This document shows positions 24,697 to 35,586 of a stretch of 38,054 nt of DNA, piece by piece. The translations under genes were made by a program, and so were the position numbers. The stretch is from positions 1 through 38,054 of the forward strand of contig JARGFH010000036.1 in the NCBI GenBank assembly GCA_029210695.1, given 5' to 3'. Numbering within the stretch: position 1 is the stretch's first letter; each line of letters starts with the position of its first letter. The DNA comes from Acidimicrobiia bacterium. Its GTDB lineage: Bacteria; Actinomycetota; Acidimicrobiia; Spongiisociales; JAHEDJ01. The notes beneath the pieces were generated by a model. That model was not told the origin of the DNA. It was given only the letters and a program-made list of their open reading frames with translations, and ran no database searches.

Positions 24697-26070
24697 ATGA
24701 TCTCCGCCGACCCGGGTTCGTTTCGCGATCCGGCCTCGCAGATCTTCATCGACGGTACGCGAGTCCTGCGCACTCTCGACGAGCGCGGTCTCGAGGCCTG
24801 GCGGGCACTGGCCGGGACTGACTTCCTCGAGAGGGCGGTTACAGACAGCAAGATCATTGCCTCCACCGAGATAGTTGATCCACCCGCAGGCGCCGCCGGC
24901 GCGCTGGAGCATCCTCGCCTGCCCTTGATCACCTACCCGTACGAGTGGACCTTTTCGATGCTCAAGGACGCCGCACTCCTTCAGTTGGATCTGCTGGAAG
25001 GCGCACTCGGTTCCGGATTGACGATCAAGGATGCAACTCCCTTCAATATTCAGTTCGTGGACGGCAGTCCGATGTTCATCGACATCGGATCATTCGAGCG
25101 ATATCAACCCGGTGAGCCGTGGATCGGCTATCGCCAGTTCACCAGGCAGTTCCTCTTCCCACTCATGCTGCGGGCCTGGAGTGGTGTTCCCTTTCAACCC
25201 TGGATGCGCGGCGACATGGAAGGTCCGACCGCCGCCCATATGCGGAGCCTCTTGCCGTGGTGGCGAAGAATCCAACCCCGCGTTCTCCTCCATGTGGTGC
25301 TCCAGGCGCGGATGGAGGAGCGGATGTCCGGTAAGGCGGTTCGCGACGATCTCAGGCGGGCCGGATTCTCTGCCGACTTGATCCTCGCCAACGTGAGGAA
25401 ACTCCGCCGCCTCGTCGAATCGTTGCAGTGGGATCCCGAAGATGACGGATGGTCTGACTACCACGCCTGCACCCATGTGGAGCGGGATCGGGCCACCAAG
25501 GGCGAGTTCCTCGAGAGCGTCCTTCAGCGCGTGGAACCCGGCAGGGTGCTCGATGTTGGGGCCAACGACGGCTACTTCTCTCAGATCGTGGCCGGCCGTG
25601 GCGCACACGCCATCGCGGTCGACGGCGACGAGGCCGTTCTCGACCACCTGCACCGGCGTGGGACCGGGAAGGCCTTGTCAATCGTGGTGGGCGACCTCGC
25701 CAATCCATCGCCATCGCAGGGATGGGCCGGTGCGGAACGCCCATCGTTGTTCGAACGGGCCCGCCCGGACCTGGTTATCGCCTACGGTCTCATCCACCAT
25801 CTGATCTACTCGGCCAGCATCCCACCGCGCAGGGTCATGGAGTGGCTGCGCAGCTTCGACTGCCCGGTTGTGGTCGAGTTCGTCTCACCTTCAGACGAGA
25901 TGGTCGCCAAGCTCATCGGCAACAAGCTGGCCGAGGAGCTTCACGAAGGACGGGATGAAGATGCCTTCAGGGAGATCATCGCCGGCCTCTTCGAGATCAG
26001 AGACGAACGGAAGCTCGGGTCGGACACCCGCCTGCTGTTCGAACTGCATCCCCGGGAGGTCAGTCGTTGA
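24697..26070 (+). CDS. SAM-dependent methyltransferase with N-terminal kinase-like region
   Basis: A 457-residue protein in two parts. The N-terminal half (about 1-240) includes IKDATPFNIQFVDG and FIDIGSF, which resemble the catalytic D-x4-N and D-x-G loops of kinase-fold proteins such as phosphotransferases. The C-terminal half (about 270-450) has a class I methyltransferase fold: motif I VLDVGANDGYF, the acidic end of strand 2 AVDGDEA, and a later VIAYGLIHHL motif. The substrate is unknown. It is downstream of the YLDPGSGS gene and convergent with the sulfatase gene, with an 11-bp overlap of coding ends. A role in modifying an envelope glycan or lipid is an inference from these neighbours. 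Confidence 0.78.
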   Translation: MISADPGSFRDPASQIFIDGTRVLRTLDERGLEAWRALAGTDFLERAVTDSKIIASTEIVDPPAGAAGALEHPRLPLITYPYEWTFSMLKDAALLQLDLLEGALGSGLTIKDATPFNIQFVDGSPMFIDIGSFERYQPGEPWIGYRQFTRQFLFPLMLRAWSGVPFQPWMRGDMEGPTAAHMRSLLPWWRRIQPRVLLHVVLQARMEERMSGKAVRDDLRRAGFSADLILANVRKLRRLVESLQWDPEDDGWSDYHACTHVERDRATKGEFLESVLQRVEPGRVLDVGANDGYFSQIVAGRGAHAIAVDGDEAVLDHLHRRGTGKALSIVVGDLANPSPSQGWAGAERPSLFERARPDLVIAYGLIHHLIYSASIPPRRVMEWLRSFDCPVVVEFVSPSDEMVAKLIGNKLAEELHEGRDEDAFREIIAGLFEIRDERKLGSDTRLLFELHPREVSR

Positions 26071-28528
26071 AGGTCGCCGGATCGCTGATCGCGTAATCCC
26101 CGAATTCCGCTACGACCGTCAACCGGTCGAGCCCATCCGGCACCGAGCCGGCGTCGATCTCGAATGAGAATCCCGACCGGAGAAGATCGTCACTCTTGTA
26201 CCACCTCACAACGTTCGGGTTGTCGAGATTGGGTGGGCCGTACGCAACGAGTGAGTCGCCGGCAAAGACGTAGAACCGGTCGGCGGTGACCTTCCGGCTG
26301 ACATCGGCCGCCCAACCGACCACGTGCCAGCCGGACTCGGTTCTCGTCACCTCGTCCACCTGAAGACGCCGGTTGCCCTCGTCCTGCAGTGCGAGCACGT
26401 GCCCGTCGTCTGCGATGTACTCGAGGTTCACGTCGTCCGCCGATCCGGTCAGCCATCCTGAACCGTCCGGTATCGGGACGAGGATGGTGAGTTCGTTCGC
26501 TCCGTCCGTCATCAGATCTTCTGCGACGAGCCCCCGGATCTGCCCACCGCTGGGAGTGTCCCGGGAGATGAATCCGGCCCCCGCCACCCGTCCGTTTACC
26601 GCGATGAGAATGTCGTCGCCTTCAACGTCGGTGGGCAGCTCGAGCCGGCCGGTGATCAGGGTTTGGACCATGCCGGACCGGCGATCGACCGAGGCGAGTG
26701 CATTGGCGTGATCGAGCGACCAGCGCACCTCGTCGCTGGCTTCCGGGCTGAGTTCGACCACCGGTGTGCCGACGAGTTCGCGGTATGGCCCTACCGCGGC
26801 GATCTCCGTCCAACTGTCCTGACCGGGTACCCATTGGTGGTTGCGGGCGACTTGCTCGAAGAGGACCGAGACGTCGGTGCTCGCGCCCTCCGTGCTGCAG
26901 CACCAGTGGATGATCGTGTGAGGGCGGTCGGTGCTTTCGATGTCCAGCAACGACATGCCGTCGAGCTCCCAGTCGCTGGAGATGTCCAGGGCGTCGATGA
27001 TGGTCGGGAGGATGTCGATTGTGAAGGCCGGCTCATCCCGGGTCATTCCTTCGGTTTGGCCGGGGTATTTCACGAACAACGGAACCCGGTAGAGGTCATC
27101 GCGGTTGTTCTCGTACGGCCACCGTCTGTGCTCGCCGGGGACGAATGAGGCACCGTGGTCGGCCACCACGATGATCATGGCATCATCCCAGCTGCCCGTC
27201 TCTGCCAGTCGGTCGAAGAGCGATCCGAGCATCGTATCGAGGAACCCCAGCTGGTAGAGGTGCCGCTGGAAACCGAGCCGGGTGATGTTGGGGTCGACAT
27301 CCCAGAACCCCGACCCCTGGACACCGTCGACCTCGCTGTATTGCTCCGGCCGCTCGTAGTGGGTTCCCGACGGGTTGACGACCCAGGGCACATGAGGGGA
27401 TTTCAGATGGGCGTAGTGGACCGTCGGTGGGGCGTCTTCGGTAACACCATTGATGATCCGCTGAATCCAGTCGATCCACTCGCTTCGGACACCGGCCTTG
27501 GGAACGGGAAAGTCGTCGACGGCGACGGGTGACGCCGATGGGTTGTTCTCCTGACCGAGGAACCCCTTCCAGGTGTTGTCGATGCTGGGGAGGTTGTCAC
27601 GTGCCCCGGCGGGGAGGGAGAGATGTCCGTACACCACGCCCGTATCGCGGACCAGCGAGGCGAATCGGGCCGGGGCCCTCCCGGCATAGTCCTCGCATAC
27701 ATCTTCCGGGCAGAGGTCGGCTACCCATTCGATCACGTGCATCTCATAGGCGCTGCCTAGCAGGGTGAATAGGTTGTCCGGATGGTCTATCGCCGACGGG
27801 CTGAGATCCTTGCTTCCGAAACGTCCCGTCAGCGCGGCCGGGACGCTCTGCGTTGTGGCGATGGAGGCGGACAGTGCGTTCCGGTACCAGGTGCCGGAAT
27901 TCGCCAGACGGGCGAAGTTCGGGAAAAGCGTTTCGTTGATCGAACCGTCCATGTTCATCATCGAGGCGGTTGGGAACTCATCGAGTTGTATGAAGACGAT
28001 CGAATGCGGTTGACCGACGCGGCTGGTGTCGATCGAAGCGGCGGCGGCGGGTTGTTCCCAGATGAGCCGGGACGTGGCGGAGAACACCAGGAAGAGAACG
28101 AGCACGGCCGGAAGTGCCAGCGAGAATAGAACCAGTGTTCCTTCGATTCTCTTGCGCAGGATGATCAAGACCGAGGCGATCACCAGGGTCAAAATGATCG
28201 CGCCGACGGTGCCGTCCGGTACCGCCTGCCGGCTGATCACCAGACCTAGCGCTGCTCCGCCCAGCCCTACGAAGGTTATGTAGACGCGGGTGGCCGTCCG
28301 GGATCCGATCTTCTCTGCCAAGCCTAGGAACAGGAGACCGATGAGCGGCGGAACCAACGTGATCATCAGCGCAAATAGAACGATCTGCGACTTGCTGGCT
28401 CGATTGGCGACAAAGACCTCTGGATTCTTTCCGTAGAGATCGAGAAGGGGCGCGGCAACGGCCGCGGCGCTGAGCGCGCAGATGACAAGAAAGCGGTGCC
28501 AGAGTCGGCGTCTGTTGATTCGGCTCAT
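26060..28528 (-). CDS. Membrane sulfatase/alkaline phosphatase superfamily enzyme
   Basis: A large (822-residue) protein with about five N-terminal membrane helices (residues about 12-150) and an extracellular sulfatase-like domain (about 170-560). The metal-binding start IVFIQLDEFP, the nucleophile region SASIATTQSVPAALTG (Thr as probable nucleophile, like LtaS-type enzymes), and IIVVADHGASFVPGEHRRWP are all present. The C-terminal 250 residues form beta-rich domains of unknown role. Such enzymes transfer phosphoglycerol or phosphoethanolamine groups or hydrolyse sulfate esters. I prefer the ATG at 28528; a GTG at 28534 is the alternative. It overlaps the end of the methyltransferase gene. 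Confidence 0.82.
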   Translation of the reverse strand: MSRINRRRLWHRFLVICALSAAAVAAPLLDLYGKNPEVFVANRASKSQIVLFALMITLVPPLIGLLFLGLAEKIGSRTATRVYITFVGLGGAALGLVISRQAVPDGTVGAIILTLVIASVLIILRKRIEGTLVLFSLALPAVLVLFLVFSATSRLIWEQPAAAASIDTSRVGQPHSIVFIQLDEFPTASMMNMDGSINETLFPNFARLANSGTWYRNALSASIATTQSVPAALTGRFGSKDLSPSAIDHPDNLFTLLGSAYEMHVIEWVADLCPEDVCEDYAGRAPARFASLVRDTGVVYGHLSLPAGARDNLPSIDNTWKGFLGQENNPSASPVAVDDFPVPKAGVRSEWIDWIQRIINGVTEDAPPTVHYAHLKSPHVPWVVNPSGTHYERPEQYSEVDGVQGSGFWDVDPNITRLGFQRHLYQLGFLDTMLGSLFDRLAETGSWDDAMIIVVADHGASFVPGEHRRWPYENNRDDLYRVPLFVKYPGQTEGMTRDEPAFTIDILPTIIDALDISSDWELDGMSLLDIESTDRPHTIIHWCCSTEGASTDVSVLFEQVARNHQWVPGQDSWTEIAAVGPYRELVGTPVVELSPEASDEVRWSLDHANALASVDRRSGMVQTLITGRLELPTDVEGDDILIAVNGRVAGAGFISRDTPSGGQIRGLVAEDLMTDGANELTILVPIPDGSGWLTGSADDVNLEYIADDGHVLALQDEGNRRLQVDEVTRTESGWHVVGWAADVSRKVTADRFYVFAGDSLVAYGPPNLDNPNVVRWYKSDDLLRSGFSFEIDAGSVPDGLDRLTVVAEFGDYAISDPATFND

Positions 28529-28602
28529 CGGCACCGCCGAATGGTACCGGTTGCAGGCGTCAATCAGACAACGTGCCGTCGACCCGAAATGCGCAAAGCA
28601 AG

Positions 28603-28674: not shown

Positions 28675-28712
28675 GCGACAATCGCCTTTGCCCGCCTCCC
28701 GAAAGACCCTTG

Positions 28713-29732
28713 ATGTCCGGCAACGCCGCCTTCAATCTGATCGACACTGCCATTGTCTCCGTTGCTCATGTGGATGCACCGGAGGTGGTTACTTCCGCAG
28801 AATTCGACGAGATCCTTGCCGAGACCTACGAGCGGGTCGGCGCTCAACCGGGACTTCTCGAGAGCCTCGCCGGCATCCGTGAGCGCCGCTGGTGGCCCGA
28901 AGGGCATCTTTTCACCGATGCAGCTGCCGCAGCCGGAGCAAAGGCGATCGAGGCCAGCGGCGTCCGGGTCGAAGAGATCGGCTTGCTGATCGACACTTCG
29001 GTCTGCCGCGATCGGCTCGAACCGTCTTCCGCGGTCACGGTCCACAATGCGCTCGATCTCCCCAGCTGGTGTCTCAATTTCGACCTCTCCAACGCCTGCC
29101 TCGGGTTCGTCAATGCACTCCAGGTGGCCGGCAACATGATCGACGCCGGACAGATCAACTATGCCCTGATCGTCGACGGCGAGGGCAGCCGCCTCATTCA
29201 GCAGAGAACCCTGGAACGGCTCTCGAGTCCCGATGCGACCATGGCCGACCTCTTCGCCGAATTCGCATCGCTGACGCTCGGCTCGGGAGGGGCCGCCGCA
29301 GTCGTTGGACGGCACTCTGAGAACCCCGGGAGCCACAAGGTGGTTGGTGGGGTGGCCAGGGCTGACACGAGTCACCACAACCTGTGTATCGGGGATATGA
29401 ACCAGATGCGTACGGATACCAGAGGTCTTCTGGATGCCGGACTGCAGGTCTCCAAGCTGGGCTGGATCGATGCAGAGGAGCGGGGCTGGCTGGAGGTCGA
29501 CCGCTACATCGTCCATCAGATCTCACTGGTGCACACGACGATGCTGTGTGAGCACCTGGGAATAGACATGGCCAAGGTTCCGCTCACGTTCCCGTACCTC
29601 GGCAACGTCGGCCCGGCGTCGATTCCCATCACTCTGTCCCGGGAAGCCGACTCACTCCTGGCCGGGGATAAAGTCCTCCTGATGGGGATGGGGTCCGGCA
29701 TCAATGCATCGGTGATTGAACTGGTCTGGTGA
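28713..29732 (+). CDS. oleA: OleA, acyl-CoA head-to-head condensing thiolase
   Basis: OleA joins two fatty acyl-CoA molecules by non-decarboxylative Claisen condensation to a 2-alkyl-3-keto acid. The 339-residue thiolase-fold protein has the catalytic Cys129 in DLSNACLGF, His268 in VHQIS, Asn298 in LGNVGPAS and the OleA-specific Glu103 in RDRLEPSS. The spacing Glu to Cys (26) and His to Asn (30) equals that of the characterised Xanthomonas OleA (E117/C143, H285/N315), which separates it from ordinary FabH. I chose the ATG at 28713; a TTG at 28710 is directly before it. It is the first gene of the ole operon and overlaps oleBC by 4 bp (GTGA). Confidence 0.93.
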   Translation: MSGNAAFNLIDTAIVSVAHVDAPEVVTSAEFDEILAETYERVGAQPGLLESLAGIRERRWWPEGHLFTDAAAAAGAKAIEASGVRVEEIGLLIDTSVCRDRLEPSSAVTVHNALDLPSWCLNFDLSNACLGFVNALQVAGNMIDAGQINYALIVDGEGSRLIQQRTLERLSSPDATMADLFAEFASLTLGSGGAAAVVGRHSENPGSHKVVGGVARADTSHHNLCIGDMNQMRTDTRGLLDAGLQVSKLGWIDAEERGWLEVDRYIVHQISLVHTTMLCEHLGIDMAKVPLTFPYLGNVGPASIPITLSREADSLLAGDKVLLMGMGSGINASVIELVW

Positions 29733-32299
29733 CCGCCGGTTCGACGTCGCCGGCCGCACTTCCTCCGTCCGGCCTGGCCGGTCTCGAACCCGGGTGGTCG
29801 CGGCTCGTCACGACAGCGGGCCTCGACGGAGCCGGCCGAACCTGGCACGTGCTCGACAACGGTGCGCAAGATCCGACCCTCACCCTGCTGTGTGTGCACG
29901 GCAACCCGACCTGGTCGTATCTCTGGCGTGAGCTGATCGCCGGCGCCCCGCCAACGGTGCGGGTGGTTGCGCCGGATCAGCTCGACATGGGTTTCTCGGA
30001 ACGGACCGGGACGGCTCGCCGGTTTGAGCAGCGGATCGAGGATCTGTGTGCACTGACCGAGGAACTGGGACTGAAGGGACCGGTCGTGACAGTCGCCCAC
30101 GACTGGGGTGGTCCGGTTTCTCTGGGCTGGGCCGAGCGCCATCGCGATCAGATGGCCGGAATCGTGCTGATGAACACGGCCGTGCACCAACCGGGCGGGT
30201 TGACGGCACCCCGGCTGATCCGCATGGTCCGGGCCGGTGGGATCCTGGAGAAAGCCTGCGTTGCGACTCCGACCTTTCTGCGGGGAGCCCTGGCCCTGGC
30301 TCGACCTCGCCTTGCCACGTCCATCCGCGAGGCCTATGAAGCTCCGTACCGCACTTCCGACCGGCGAGCGGGGATCGGCGCCTTCGTCGAGGACATCCCG
30401 CTGAGTGACGATCACCCGACCCGGCGGCCTCTGGATGAGGTTGCCGCCGGCCTCGACCAACTTGGCGAAGTTCCGGCGCTGCTTCTGTGGGGCCCACGCG
30501 ACCCGGTGTTCTCCGAGCGCTATCTGCACGACCTCGTTGCCCGGCTACCGAAGTCCGAGATTCATCGATTCGAGGGTGCCGGTCACCTCGTGACCGAGGA
30601 CGCCGATGTCGCAAGTGCCATTTCCACCTGGGTCCAGGGGCTCGACCGTGCGCCCTTCCCGGTTACACCGATCGCGGATCGAGAACCGCTCTGGGCCGCC
30701 CTCGACCGGCGGAGCGAAGATGCCGCCGTGGCCATCGTCGAGATGGGTTCCGGCGGAGCAGAAGCATCCCTTACGTTTGCAGAACTCAATTCGGATGTGA
30801 GGAGCGTGGCTGCCGGGCTCGCCGAGTTCGGCGTTGAGAAAGGCGATCGGGTCGCCTTGCTGGTTCCACCGGGCATCGACCTGGCCGTCTCTCTCTACGC
30901 CTGCTGGCGGATTGGGGCGGTGGTGGTGGTTGCCGATGCCGGTCTCGGTGCCCGTGGCATGAGCAGGGCACTCGCAGCCGCCAACCCGGACTACCTCATC
31001 GGGGTTCCCCGTGCCCTGGCCGCCGCCCGGACGCTGGGCTGGCCCGGTCTGCGGATTTCAACCGCACCGCTGGGGCCGGCTCTCGTCCGTCTGTTTGATG
31101 TGCGGGCGACCCTCGATGAGCTGCGCAGCCGAGGCAAACGGCGCCCGGCTCCGCCGATGCCGGAGCCCGTCGATGAGGCGGCGATCGCTTTTACGTCCGG
31201 CGCGACGGGGCCTGCCAAGGGAGTTGCGTATCGGCACCACCAGCTTCAGGCCCAGCGTGACGCCCTCGTCGATCTATACGGGATCCATAGCGATGACCGC
31301 CTGGTGGCCGCGTTCGGGCCGTTCGCCCTGTTCGGGCCCGCCATGGGTATAACTTCCGTGGTGCCGGACATGGTTGTTACTGCTCCGGGCAGCCTCACCG
31401 CTCGAGCACTGGCGGAGGCCGTGCAGGCAGTCCGGGCAACGCTCGTCTTCGCCTCTCCCGCCGCGTTGACCAATGCTGCGCTGACGGCAGACGGGGTATC
31501 GGCTGCCGGAGCCGCCGCAATGCAGGGGGTCCGGTTGGTGATGTCGGCGGGGGCACCGGTTCAAGTCGACGTTTTGCGCGGAGCCGTCGCGCTGATGCCG
31601 CGGGCCCAGGCGCGCACTCCCTACGGCATGACCGAGGTTCTGCCCGTCGCGGACATCAGCCTGACGGAAATCGAGGCGGTCGGATCGGGAAATGGAGTAT
31701 GTGTCGGACATCCGGTTCGAGGTGTCGAGGTGGCGATCAGCCCCTTCGGCTCCGGCGCTGAGGAGACGGGCACCCTTACCCACGCCGGCGGCGTCGCAGG
31801 CGAAGTCTGCATCCGGGCCGCGCACATGCGGGACGGTTACGACGGCCTCTGGATGACTCAGCAACTGGCGTCGCAACCGGCCGGTTGGCACCGCAGCGGG
31901 GATGTGGGCCATTTCGATGACGCCGGCCGCCTGTGGATTGAAGGCAGGGTCGGACACATCGTGACGACTGCAGGCGGATTGGTGACTCCGGTCGGGATTG
32001 AGCATTCGGTGACGGCTCTTCCCGATGTTGCGCAAGCGGCTGCAGTCGGGATCGGTCCGGCCGGCACGCAGCAGTTGGTCGTGGTGGTGGTTCCGGTGGC
32101 CGGCCGCCGGCGTCCGGATCTGGCCGATGAGGATCTAGCCGATCGGGTCAGAGCGCGGGTCGGCGCGATCGACGTAGCCGCGGTCCTGACGGTCCCGTCA
32201 CTTCCCGTCGACAAGCGTCACAACTCCAAGATCGATCGTCCCCGGGTCGCCCGTTGGGCAGCGCAGGTACTGGCCGGCGGCCGCTTGGGTCGAATATGA
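29729..32299 (+). CDS. oleBC: OleBC fusion: beta-lactone decarboxylase and beta-lactone synthetase
   Basis: An 856-residue fusion. Residues about 1-300 are OleB, an alpha/beta hydrolase related to haloalkane dehalogenases, with the HGNPTW motif and the nucleophile Asp125 in HDWGGP; it splits the beta-lactone to a cis-alkene and CO2. From about residue 310 on lies OleC, an acyl-adenylate-forming enzyme that cyclises the beta-hydroxy acid to a beta-lactone: the P-loop FTSGATGPAKG (about 488-498), YGMTEVLP, SGDVGHFDDAGRLW and the terminal lysine region RHNSKIDRPR are all intact. Fused oleBC genes are known from actinobacteria. The GTG start overlaps oleA, and the end overlaps oleD (ATGA). Confidence 0.93.
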   Translation: MTAGSTSPAALPPSGLAGLEPGWSRLVTTAGLDGAGRTWHVLDNGAQDPTLTLLCVHGNPTWSYLWRELIAGAPPTVRVVAPDQLDMGFSERTGTARRFEQRIEDLCALTEELGLKGPVVTVAHDWGGPVSLGWAERHRDQMAGIVLMNTAVHQPGGLTAPRLIRMVRAGGILEKACVATPTFLRGALALARPRLATSIREAYEAPYRTSDRRAGIGAFVEDIPLSDDHPTRRPLDEVAAGLDQLGEVPALLLWGPRDPVFSERYLHDLVARLPKSEIHRFEGAGHLVTEDADVASAISTWVQGLDRAPFPVTPIADREPLWAALDRRSEDAAVAIVEMGSGGAEASLTFAELNSDVRSVAAGLAEFGVEKGDRVALLVPPGIDLAVSLYACWRIGAVVVVADAGLGARGMSRALAAANPDYLIGVPRALAAARTLGWPGLRISTAPLGPALVRLFDVRATLDELRSRGKRRPAPPMPEPVDEAAIAFTSGATGPAKGVAYRHHQLQAQRDALVDLYGIHSDDRLVAAFGPFALFGPAMGITSVVPDMVVTAPGSLTARALAEAVQAVRATLVFASPAALTNAALTADGVSAAGAAAMQGVRLVMSAGAPVQVDVLRGAVALMPRAQARTPYGMTEVLPVADISLTEIEAVGSGNGVCVGHPVRGVEVAISPFGSGAEETGTLTHAGGVAGEVCIRAAHMRDGYDGLWMTQQLASQPAGWHRSGDVGHFDDAGRLWIEGRVGHIVTTAGGLVTPVGIEHSVTALPDVAQAAAVGIGPAGTQQLVVVVVPVAGRRRPDLADEDLADRVRARVGAIDVAAVLTVPSLPVDKRHNSKIDRPRVARWAAQVLAGGRLGRI

Positions 32300-33288
32300 G
32301 AGTTCTCGTTACGGGCGCCACGAGCTTGCTGGGACGCGTAGTTGTGGGCCGGCTGACCGGCCGCGGAGACGATGTCACGGTTTTCCAGCGAAGACCCGCC
32401 GACCTAGGGGTTGCCGAACACCTTGGTGACGTTGCAGACCGTGCGGCGGTAGTCGCGGCCATGGCCGGGGCGGAGGGGGTCATCCACCTGGCTGCCCGAG
32501 CGACGGTGACCGGATCGTGGCAGCAGTTCGAATCGACCAACGTCATCGGCACACGGAACGCCCTCGATGTCGCCAGTGCAGAAGGGGTCGACCGGTTCGT
32601 GCACGTGTCGTCTCCGTCGGTTGCCCACGCAGGCAGATCGCTCGTCGGGGAAGCCGCCGGTCCCGCAGATCCCGATCGCGCCCGGGGGCACTATGCCAGG
32701 AGCAAGGCACAGGCAGAACTGATCGCGCAGGCCGCCAATTCGACGAGCCTGGCGGTCGTCGCCATCAGGCCTCATCTCATCTGGGGGCCGGGTGACACGC
32801 AGCTGGTGGAGCGGATTGTGAGCAGGGCCCGAGGGGGCCGATTGGCGATCGTGGGTTCCGGTGCTTCCCTGATCGATACCACCTATGTCGACAATGCCGC
32901 CGATGCCCTCGTGGCCGCCTTGGACCGGGCTCCGGAGCTTGGAGGCAGAGCGCTGGTGGTCACCAACGGGCAGCCACGCCCGGTTCGCGAGTTGTTGAAC
33001 AGAATCGTTCTCGCCGCCGGTCTGGAGCCGCCCCGCGTCAAGGTTCCCTACCGGGTGGCTCGTACCAGCGGACTCGTCGTGGAGCGGATCTGGGAGCGGC
33101 AGAGAAGGGAAGATGACCCCCCGATGACGAGCTTCCTCGCCGAGCAGCTCGGAACGGCCCACTGGTTCGACCAGCGAGAGACCAGGAGGGCCCTCTCGTG
33201 GGAGCCGGTGGTGAGTCTGGATGAGGGTTTTCGGCGGCTCAACGCCTGGTATGAAACAGGCGGCGCCGGATCGGCCCGCCGCGGCTAG
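32296..33288 (+). CDS. oleD: OleD, 2-alkyl-3-ketoalkanoic acid reductase
   Basis: An NAD(P)H-dependent extended SDR of 330 residues that reduces the OleA product to the beta-hydroxy acid used by OleC. The nucleotide-binding loop is TGATSLLGR (residues 6-14), an acidic or basic-selecting strand end follows (VFQRRP, suggesting NADPH), and the catalytic YARSK gives Tyr133 and Lys137. The 3-beta-hydroxysteroid dehydrogenase-like C-terminal domain is complete. I chose the ATG at 32296 because it overlaps the oleBC stop by 4 bp; a longer frame from 32254 is inside oleBC. With oleA and oleBC the pathway from acyl-CoA to olefin is complete. Confidence 0.92.
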   Translation: MRVLVTGATSLLGRVVVGRLTGRGDDVTVFQRRPADLGVAEHLGDVADRAAVVAAMAGAEGVIHLAARATVTGSWQQFESTNVIGTRNALDVASAEGVDRFVHVSSPSVAHAGRSLVGEAAGPADPDRARGHYARSKAQAELIAQAANSTSLAVVAIRPHLIWGPGDTQLVERIVSRARGGRLAIVGSGASLIDTTYVDNAADALVAALDRAPELGGRALVVTNGQPRPVRELLNRIVLAAGLEPPRVKVPYRVARTSGLVVERIWERQRREDDPPMTSFLAEQLGTAHWFDQRETRRALSWEPVVSLDEGFRRLNAWYETGGAGSARRG

Positions 33289-33397: not shown

Positions 33398-33646
33398 ATG
33401 TACAACGGCAGCTGCGAACACGCGATCGCTCAGATCTACTTCTACCTCGACGGTGAGATCACGTGGATCGCCAGGCTGCGCGTCGCCCGCCATCTGCGGA
33501 GATGCCGGGACTGTTCGGGTGCCTACGACTTCGAGAGCCGCCTGAAGGCGATCGTGCGCGATCACCTTTCCGTGGAACCCCCACCCGAAGCGATCGGCCG
33601 TCTACGCGCGTTTCTCAGAGAGAACGAATCGGGATTCGGGCGCTGA
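33398..33646 (+). CDS. Orphan zinc-finger anti-sigma-like protein
   Basis: An 82-residue protein with the zf-HC2 signature: CEH near the N-terminus, then H-x3-C-x2-C (His32, Cys36, Cys39 in HLRRCRDC) and a helical tail. This is the zinc-anti-sigma fold of RsrA-type redox sensors. No ECF sigma factor gene is next to it, and no membrane segment follows, so a soluble redox-responsive regulator is a reasonable guess. Translation signals are only fair: GAGG touches the ATG, while GGGAG lies about 13 nt before it. Confidence 0.7.
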   Translation: MYNGSCEHAIAQIYFYLDGEITWIARLRVARHLRRCRDCSGAYDFESRLKAIVRDHLSVEPPPEAIGRLRAFLRENESGFGR

Positions 33647-33766: not shown

Positions 33767-34063
33767 ATGATCACGAAGCGCTTCTTCAAGACGAAAGATG
33801 AGGTCGAAGTCGCGTTCGAGCTCTCCCTTCCGGTTGACGTTGACGGCGTCTCGGTGCTGTGCGATGCGACCGAATGGGTGGCTACCCCAATGCGGCGCGC
33901 CAAAGGTGCGTGGCGGGTACGGTTACGCCTTCCCGTCGACCGGCACATTCAGTTCCGGTACCTGGCCAGTGGTGGGATCTGGATCACCGACGACGAAGCC
34001 GACGGCTACGTCGACAACCCCCACGGTGGCCAGAACTCGGTGGTCAATACCTACCGTCCCTGA
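33767..34063 (+). CDS. Stand-alone isoamylase N-terminal/CBM48-like domain protein
   Basis: A 98-residue single-domain protein starting ITKRFFKTKDEVEVAFELSL, with ATEWVATPMRRAKGAWR and FRYLASGGIWITDDEADGY. This is the early-set domain (CBM48/AMPK glycogen-binding relative) found fused to glycogen-branching enzymes and isoamylases, but no catalytic domain follows. The tryptophans could bind alpha-glucan. GGAGAG stands close before the ATG. Probably an independent unit. Confidence 0.75.
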   Translation: MITKRFFKTKDEVEVAFELSLPVDVDGVSVLCDATEWVATPMRRAKGAWRVRLRLPVDRHIQFRYLASGGIWITDDEADGYVDNPHGGQNSVVNTYRP

Positions 34064-34263: not shown

Positions 34264-35586
34264 ATGCAGATACCCGAACACGGAGTTGCCCGCCGGCAGG
34301 TCCTCAGCGATATGCAGGCACTGCGGATCGATGATGCCGACTGGCAATCCGGGCACACATGGAGCCTCGTGTACCAGGCATCCGAAGAACACACGGAATT
34401 CCTCAAAGAGGCGTACGGCACGCTCTTCTCCGAGAACGGGTTGAATCCGATCGCTTTTCCATCCCTTCGACAATTCGAGGCTGAGGTGGTGCGGATGACC
34501 GCCACGATGCTCAACGGCGATGCGGCGGTGGCCGGGACGATGACCTCGGGCGGGACGGAGAGCCTCCTGATGACCGTCAAGACCTACCGGGATTGGGGTA
34601 GGGCAACCAAAGGTATCGAGCATCCGAACATGATTCTTCCGCGGACGGCCCATGCCGCGTTCGGCAAGGCTGCGCACTATTTCGGCGTTGAGCCCATCTG
34701 GGTGGACATCGCTCCTGATCTGCGAGCCGACGTAGCGGCGATGCAAGCGGCGGTTACTGGAGATACCGTGCTGCTGGTCGGTTCGGCCCCCAACTACCCG
34801 CACGGCATGATTGATCCGATTGAAGAACTCGCCACTGTCGCGATGGAGCGGGAGGTCGGCATGCATGTCGATGCCTGTCTCGGTGGCTTCTTGCTGCCGT
34901 GGGTCGAACGTCTCGGGTATCCGATCCCTCCATTCGATTTCAGGGTGACGGGCGTGACGTCGATGTCGGCCGACGTGCACAAGTACGGATACGCGGCCAA
35001 GGGCGCTTCGACGGTGATGTATCGAAACGCCGAACTCCGGCGGCATCAGTTCCACGTCACGACCGGCTGGCCGGGTGGGATCTATGCCTCACCATCAATG
35101 GCAGGCACGCGGCCCGGCGGAGCGATCGCGGCGGCCTGGGCGGCGCTCAATGCGATGGGACAGGATGGATACCTGGCCATCGCCGAGGAGATCATGTCGG
35201 CCGCCCACCGGCTGATCGACGGCGTGAGTGCGATCGATGGGGTTCGCGTCCTCGGAACCCCACCGGCAAGCGTGTTCGCCTTCGAGTCCGATTCGACCGA
35301 CGTGGACATCTACGCGGTCGGCGACGCGCTGGAGGCCAGGGGCTGGCATATGGACCGGCAGATTGCTCCGGCTTCGCTGCACGTGATGGTGACATCGCCG
35401 GCGCACGGTGACGTTGCCGAGGATTTCCTCGCCGACCTGAGCGCATCTGTTGAGCAGGTGCGGCGCAACCCGGCGGCCTCGCAGCAAGGCCAGGCCGCCC
35501 TGTACGGGATGATGACGACGCTGCCCGATCCGACGATGGTTGACGAAATGGTTCTCCAGATGCTCGACGGCCTCTACTCCACCTGA
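34264..35586 (+). CDS. PLP-dependent decarboxylase/sphingosine-1-phosphate lyase family enzyme
   Basis: A 440-residue fold-type I PLP enzyme. The cofactor lysine is Lys240 in SADVHKYGYAAKG; the glycine-rich phosphate site reads GTMTSGGTESLLM (about 96-108), and HVDACLGGF holds the Asp that contacts the pyridine N. These match the group II decarboxylase clan, closest in style to sphingosine-1-phosphate lyases and related aldehyde-releasing enzymes. Whether the substrate is an amino acid or a phosphorylated long-chain base is not decided. GGAAGGGAG lies just before the ATG. Downstream are two tandem palindromes and a convergent gene. Confidence 0.85.
   Translation: MQIPEHGVARRQVLSDMQALRIDDADWQSGHTWSLVYQASEEHTEFLKEAYGTLFSENGLNPIAFPSLRQFEAEVVRMTATMLNGDAAVAGTMTSGGTESLLMTVKTYRDWGRATKGIEHPNMILPRTAHAAFGKAAHYFGVEPIWVDIAPDLRADVAAMQAAVTGDTVLLVGSAPNYPHGMIDPIEELATVAMEREVGMHVDACLGGFLLPWVERLGYPIPPFDFRVTGVTSMSADVHKYGYAAKGASTVMYRNAELRRHQFHVTTGWPGGIYASPSMAGTRPGGAIAAAWAALNAMGQDGYLAIAEEIMSAAHRLIDGVSAIDGVRVLGTPPASVFAFESDSTDVDIYAVGDALEARGWHMDRQIAPASLHVMVTSPAHGDVAEDFLADLSASVEQVRRNPAASQQGQAALYGMMTTLPDPTMVDEMVLQMLDGLYST

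Follow-up and report, generated by a model that had tools for sequence, protein, structure and literature searches.

In characterised ole systems the reactions follow the order OleA, OleD, OleC and OleB (PMC7158056; PMC7064751). An oleA-oleBC-oleD layout in which oleB and oleC are fused is known from Micrococcus luteus and other Micrococcales (PMC7158056; PMC7064751), and the fused three-gene layout is also on record for Granulosicoccus. In KEGG, OleBC is listed under a separate number, K25044 (PMC13170169). Because the arrangement has been described for these Micrococcales and OleBC is listed in KEGG, neither the layout nor the fusion in the locus analysed here is new. A 2020 survey concluded that, among Gram-positive orders, ole genes occur in Micrococcales alone (PMC7158056).

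The stretch of DNA that we analysed (38,054 nucleotides; hereafter the window) corresponds to contig 36 of a genome that measures 3.9 Mb in 181 contigs and is 97.9% complete. On its forward strand, oleA (28713..29732; 339 aa), oleBC (29729..32299; 856 aa) and oleD (32296..33288; 330 aa) follow one another in the order A-BC-D, with OleB and OleC on one chain. All three genes are intact, and every catalytic position is occupied. We placed the oleA start at the ATG at 28713, the in-frame TTG at 28710 being the mechanical start of the open reading frame. The oleA stop codon (TGA, 29730-29732) and the GTG start of oleBC at 29729 overlap by 4 bp in the sequence GTGA (29729..29732), and the oleBC stop codon (32297-32299) and the ATG start of oleD at 32296 overlap by 4 bp in ATGA (32296..32299). 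The sequence-only reading had proposed a complete olefin operon here, and its coordinates, the overlaps at both junctions and the catalytic residues were all as it had claimed. The best Pfam E-values across the ole genes, 1e-13 to 4e-49, exclude a chance match. The genome has no OleA and no full OleBC other than those of the window, and no second ole set was found in it. The gene content, residues, layout and phylogeny observed are, in our estimate (a probability of about 0.9), those of a standard ole operon for long-chain olefins that is probably functional and belongs to an acidimicrobial actinobacterium.

The same gene order was found again in more than 70 loci, with the genes overlapping or closely spaced. 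Among 27 Acidimicrobiia-type operons, the 4-bp overlap was present at the A/BC junction in 23 and at the BC/D junction in all. None of the six genes flanking the operon in the window lay beside ole genes in any other locus, loci of the same genus included. Because the gene order recurs and the flanking genes do not, we regard oleA-oleBC-oleD as a self-contained unit. Divergent from oleA, a gene on the reverse strand (26060-28534) encodes an 824-aa sulfatase-domain protein with N-terminal hydrophobic segments. Just 3′ of oleD, on the forward strand, lies a gene for an 82-aa zf-HC2 (anti-sigma type zinc finger) protein (33398-33646) that is not conserved beside other ole operons. It is followed on the same strand by a gene for a 98-aa protein (33767-34063), in which a carbohydrate-binding module of the glycogen-binding type was recognised by eye and which had no Pfam match at 0.001, and by a gene for a PLP-dependent decarboxylase (34264-35586). 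The nearest family to the latter was the tyrosine decarboxylase MfnA, at 232 bits against a cut-off of 299, and the enzyme could be of the sphingosine-phosphate-lyase-like type. A link between the ole genes and the PLP decarboxylase, zf-HC2 or sulfatase genes was rejected on the lack of recurrence of the six flanking genes.

The OleBC protein consists of an OleB half (residues ~20-305) and an OleC half (residues ~325-850). In Pfam searches, an alpha/beta hydrolase domain (PF00561) was found at residues 52-291, an AMP-binding enzyme domain (PF00501) at 333-704 and the C-terminal domain of the latter (PF13193) at 757-826. The OleB half is a haloalkane dehalogenase (HLD)-like alpha/beta hydrolase with an aspartate nucleophile and a histidine base. 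It contains HGNPTW (57-62), the nucleophile Asp125 within HDWGG, Asp258 and His286. Its best match among solved structures was DhmeA (8ckp, 8ooh), a haloalkane-dehalogenase-like protein of subfamily III, the subfamily in which X. campestris OleB has also been placed (PMC10503415). DhmeA shares the aspartate nucleophile and the histidine with the OleB half, although the match reached only ~108 bits and DhmeA is not known here from an ole operon. The motifs of an adenylating enzyme are intact in the OleC half (TSGATGPAKG at 489-498, YGMTE at 632-636, GDVGHF at 724-729, R740 and K834), which is encoded together with OleA and OleD in an ole operon. The OleC half fell below the cut-offs of the olefin beta-lactone synthetase models NF045786 (283 of 900 bits) and NF045785 (234 of 850 bits), whose names refer to the Xanthomonas and Shewanella (Gram-negative) forms, and its best model, the broad ligase model NF006754, was also missed (352.8 bits, cut-off 478). 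Because of the operon, the fusion and the tree, we filed it as an OleC-type domain outside the two curated subfamilies. In 41 fused OleBC proteins that were 45-76% identical to that of the window, D125, D258, H286, N59 and W126 of OleB were invariant, as were the main ligase positions of OleC.

The fusion holds the last two enzymes of the pathway on one chain, and the sequence-only reading proposed that the beta-lactone would be channelled along a physical route connecting the active sites of OleC and OleB. In keeping with such a route, the fused proteins belong to a single old branch, and the AlphaFold model of the whole chain is of high confidence (mean pLDDT 90.4, pTM 0.88). However, according to the part of PMC10503415 that cites Christenson 2017, the unfused OleB of Xanthomonas already acts in large multi-enzyme assemblies. 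Channelling is something that we would infer from the fusion, and we consider it rather doubtful. When the whole model was used in a fold search, the top matches were all acyl-adenylating enzymes; because the ligase half dominates the search, this result is uninformative on OleB.

The olefin operon that we favour would work as follows, by analogy with characterised relatives. OleA, a thiolase, is predicted to carry out a head-to-head, non-decarboxylative Claisen condensation of two fatty acyl-CoAs, giving a beta-keto acid. OleD, a predicted NAD(P)H-dependent 2-alkyl-3-oxoalkanoate reductase, would reduce this product to the beta-hydroxy acid, from which the OleC half of OleBC, using ATP, would form a cis-beta-lactone. 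The OleB half, a predicted beta-lactone decarboxylase, would finally remove CO2, leaving a long-chain cis-alkene with an internal double bond for the membrane. All four activities are backed by family and structure-sequence matches. OleD is of the extended SDR type, with a glycine-rich motif (GATSLLG, 7-13) and Y133xxxK137, and lies in the ole operon. Its best family was NF042422 (2-alkyl-3-oxoalkanoate reductase OleD), at 313.6 bits, below the cut-off of 580, with a query that began 14 residues upstream, at 32254. Counting against this reading are the scores of OleC and OleD under the NCBIfam cut-offs, in models named for Gram-negative forms, the substrate chain length, which is not readable from sequence, and the ole literature cited here, in which no ole product from acidimicrobial members is reported.

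OleA, OleC and OleD are common to olefin and beta-lactone pathways (PMC7064751). The operon might accordingly be read as one for a beta-lactone natural product of the nocardiolactone or lipstatin type, in which OleB activity was lost or changed and the lactone is the end product. In published practice, the presence of oleB separates olefin clusters from beta-lactone clusters, and oleB is missing from the characterised clusters of the latter kind, which consist of oleACD (PMC7064751). In the window, the OleB domain is present and intact, and Asp125, His286, Asn59 and Trp126 are among the residues that did not vary in the 41 relatives. In addition, no P450, NRPS or glycosyltransferase was found among the neighbouring genes tested, and none of these neighbours recurs beside other ole operons. 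With OleB intact, a beta-lactone end product is very unlikely.

The OleA protein scored 421 bits against NCBIfam NF006720 (cut-off 285), whereas FabH models remained far below their own cut-offs. Its best solved structures were all X. campestris OleA (PDB 3row; 290 bits), and FabH structures reached at most 70 bits. Residues Glu103, Cys129, His268 and Asn298 aligned with the catalytic residues of 3row, which are Glu117, Cys143, His285 and Asn315 in X. campestris numbering. The spacings in the window protein, 26 residues for Glu103/Cys129 and 30 for His268/Asn298, equal those of Glu117/Cys143 and His285/Asn315. Glu117 and His285 of OleA are also named in titles among the works listed by PMC7064751. 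The window protein has the diagnostic OleA motif, EPxx[AS]x(14,18)DxxNACL (PMC7158056), as EPSSAVTVHNALDLPSWCLNFDLSNACL at residue 103; the motif was found in 56/56 OleA rows and was absent from the FabH of the host itself. In a tree of 57 rows, the window protein lay among OleA proteins of other fused operons, grouping with characterised OleA and not with FabH; the FabH row is a very long branch, so that the tree supports the OleA identity and is no proof alone. The sequence-only reading had called the assignment firm on the equality of the spacings. That equality was confirmed, but spacing alone does not make the assignment firm; it is firm because of the profile, structure-sequence and tree evidence. 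Grouping with FabH, against which the identity was tested, was seen neither in the tree nor in the bit scores. Although the thiolase fold and the Pfam families are common to OleA and FabH, we rejected the idea that OleA is a FabH/KASIII paralogue in a cluster with a product other than olefins, to which we give almost no weight, on the profile scores, structure matches, motif and tree position and on the presence of a separate FabH-like gene in the host genome.

Because the pathway is known, the operon itself teaches little, and the useful part of this analysis is the distribution. OleBC matches (E <= 1e-100) were obtained in 63 of 395 sampled Acidimicrobiia genomes and in 47 of the 268 of good quality, covering 35 of 184 genera; a few weaker matches span only part of the query, at contig ends. 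What is new is therefore mainly that the fused enzyme is common in the little-studied Acidimicrobiia, contrary to the Micrococcales-only statement of the 2020 survey. A wider presence was partly anticipated, since a 2026 paper (PMC13170169) already lists OleBC or OleC in Actinobacteriota MAGs, in passages that do not name the class. With about one in six sampled Acidimicrobiia genomes carrying the fused enzyme, more organisms become likely producers of biogenic alkenes, and the divergent OleA and OleBC sequences offer new starting material for chain-length work. Two divergent OleBC relatives (G083:C1:784208-786688 and G358:C13:129665-132070) each had one in-frame stop codon (TGA and TAA, respectively) and may be pseudogenes, sequencing errors or split genes. 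Two Acidimicrobiia-type operons (L009 and L022) were in records titled 'Acidobacteria bacterium'; the title of L009 is probably wrong, because its genome (G264) falls in the order of the window itself.

In the OleBC tree, all fused proteins clustered in a single branch (support 100), separate from their unfused gammaproteobacterial counterparts, a topology that fits a single fusion event. The deepest fused branches were Acidimicrobiia genomes in a tree with a distant outgroup, whose long branch makes the root of the fused clade unsure. In both the OleA and the OleBC trees, Pseudohaliea rubra (L046) and the gammaproteobacterium G750 (L128) lay inside the Acidimicrobiia-type branch at different places. 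In AU tests, P. rubra and G750 as one clade were rejected (p = 0.0023), as was the placement of either with Micrococcales (p = 0.0015 for P. rubra and p = 0.00014 for G750); these values are indicative only, because the groups were named after the tree had been seen and quick trees were used. For the lateral transfer to P. rubra, an earlier note named Actinobacteria in general (PMC7158056), and our trees point to the Acidimicrobiia side as the probable donor. We lean slightly towards a history in which Acidimicrobiia, where the most divergent forms occur, have long possessed the fused OleBC and, rather than Micrococcales, were the donors of the fused operon in at least two transfers to Gammaproteobacteria (P. 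rubra and G750); Acidimicrobiia members would then be unrecognised olefin producers. The distribution also changes which lineage is the probable source of the lateral transfers reported for Gammaproteobacteria. The fused OleBC of G750 (L092/L128) is 52% identical to that of the window and nested near Ilumatobacter-type proteins; it may come from contamination of the genome.

The direct relatives of the operon are the Acidimicrobiia-type fused operons (e.g. L009, L018, L025 and L041) and that of P. rubra, which have the same gene order and OleBC proteins 56-76% identical to that of the window, but flanking genes unlike those of the window. The operon of M. luteus and other Micrococcales matches that of the window in its three genes and their order, in the OleB-OleC fusion and often in the 4-bp overlaps, whereas its OleBC is only ~41-52% identical to the window protein, which belongs to a separate, Acidimicrobiia-type branch. 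Unfused gammaproteobacterial OleC proteins were ~33-38% identical to the OleC half of the window. The oleABCD genes of Xanthomonas campestris encode the same four activities and the same OleA catalytic residues as the window, but there oleB and oleC are separate genes.
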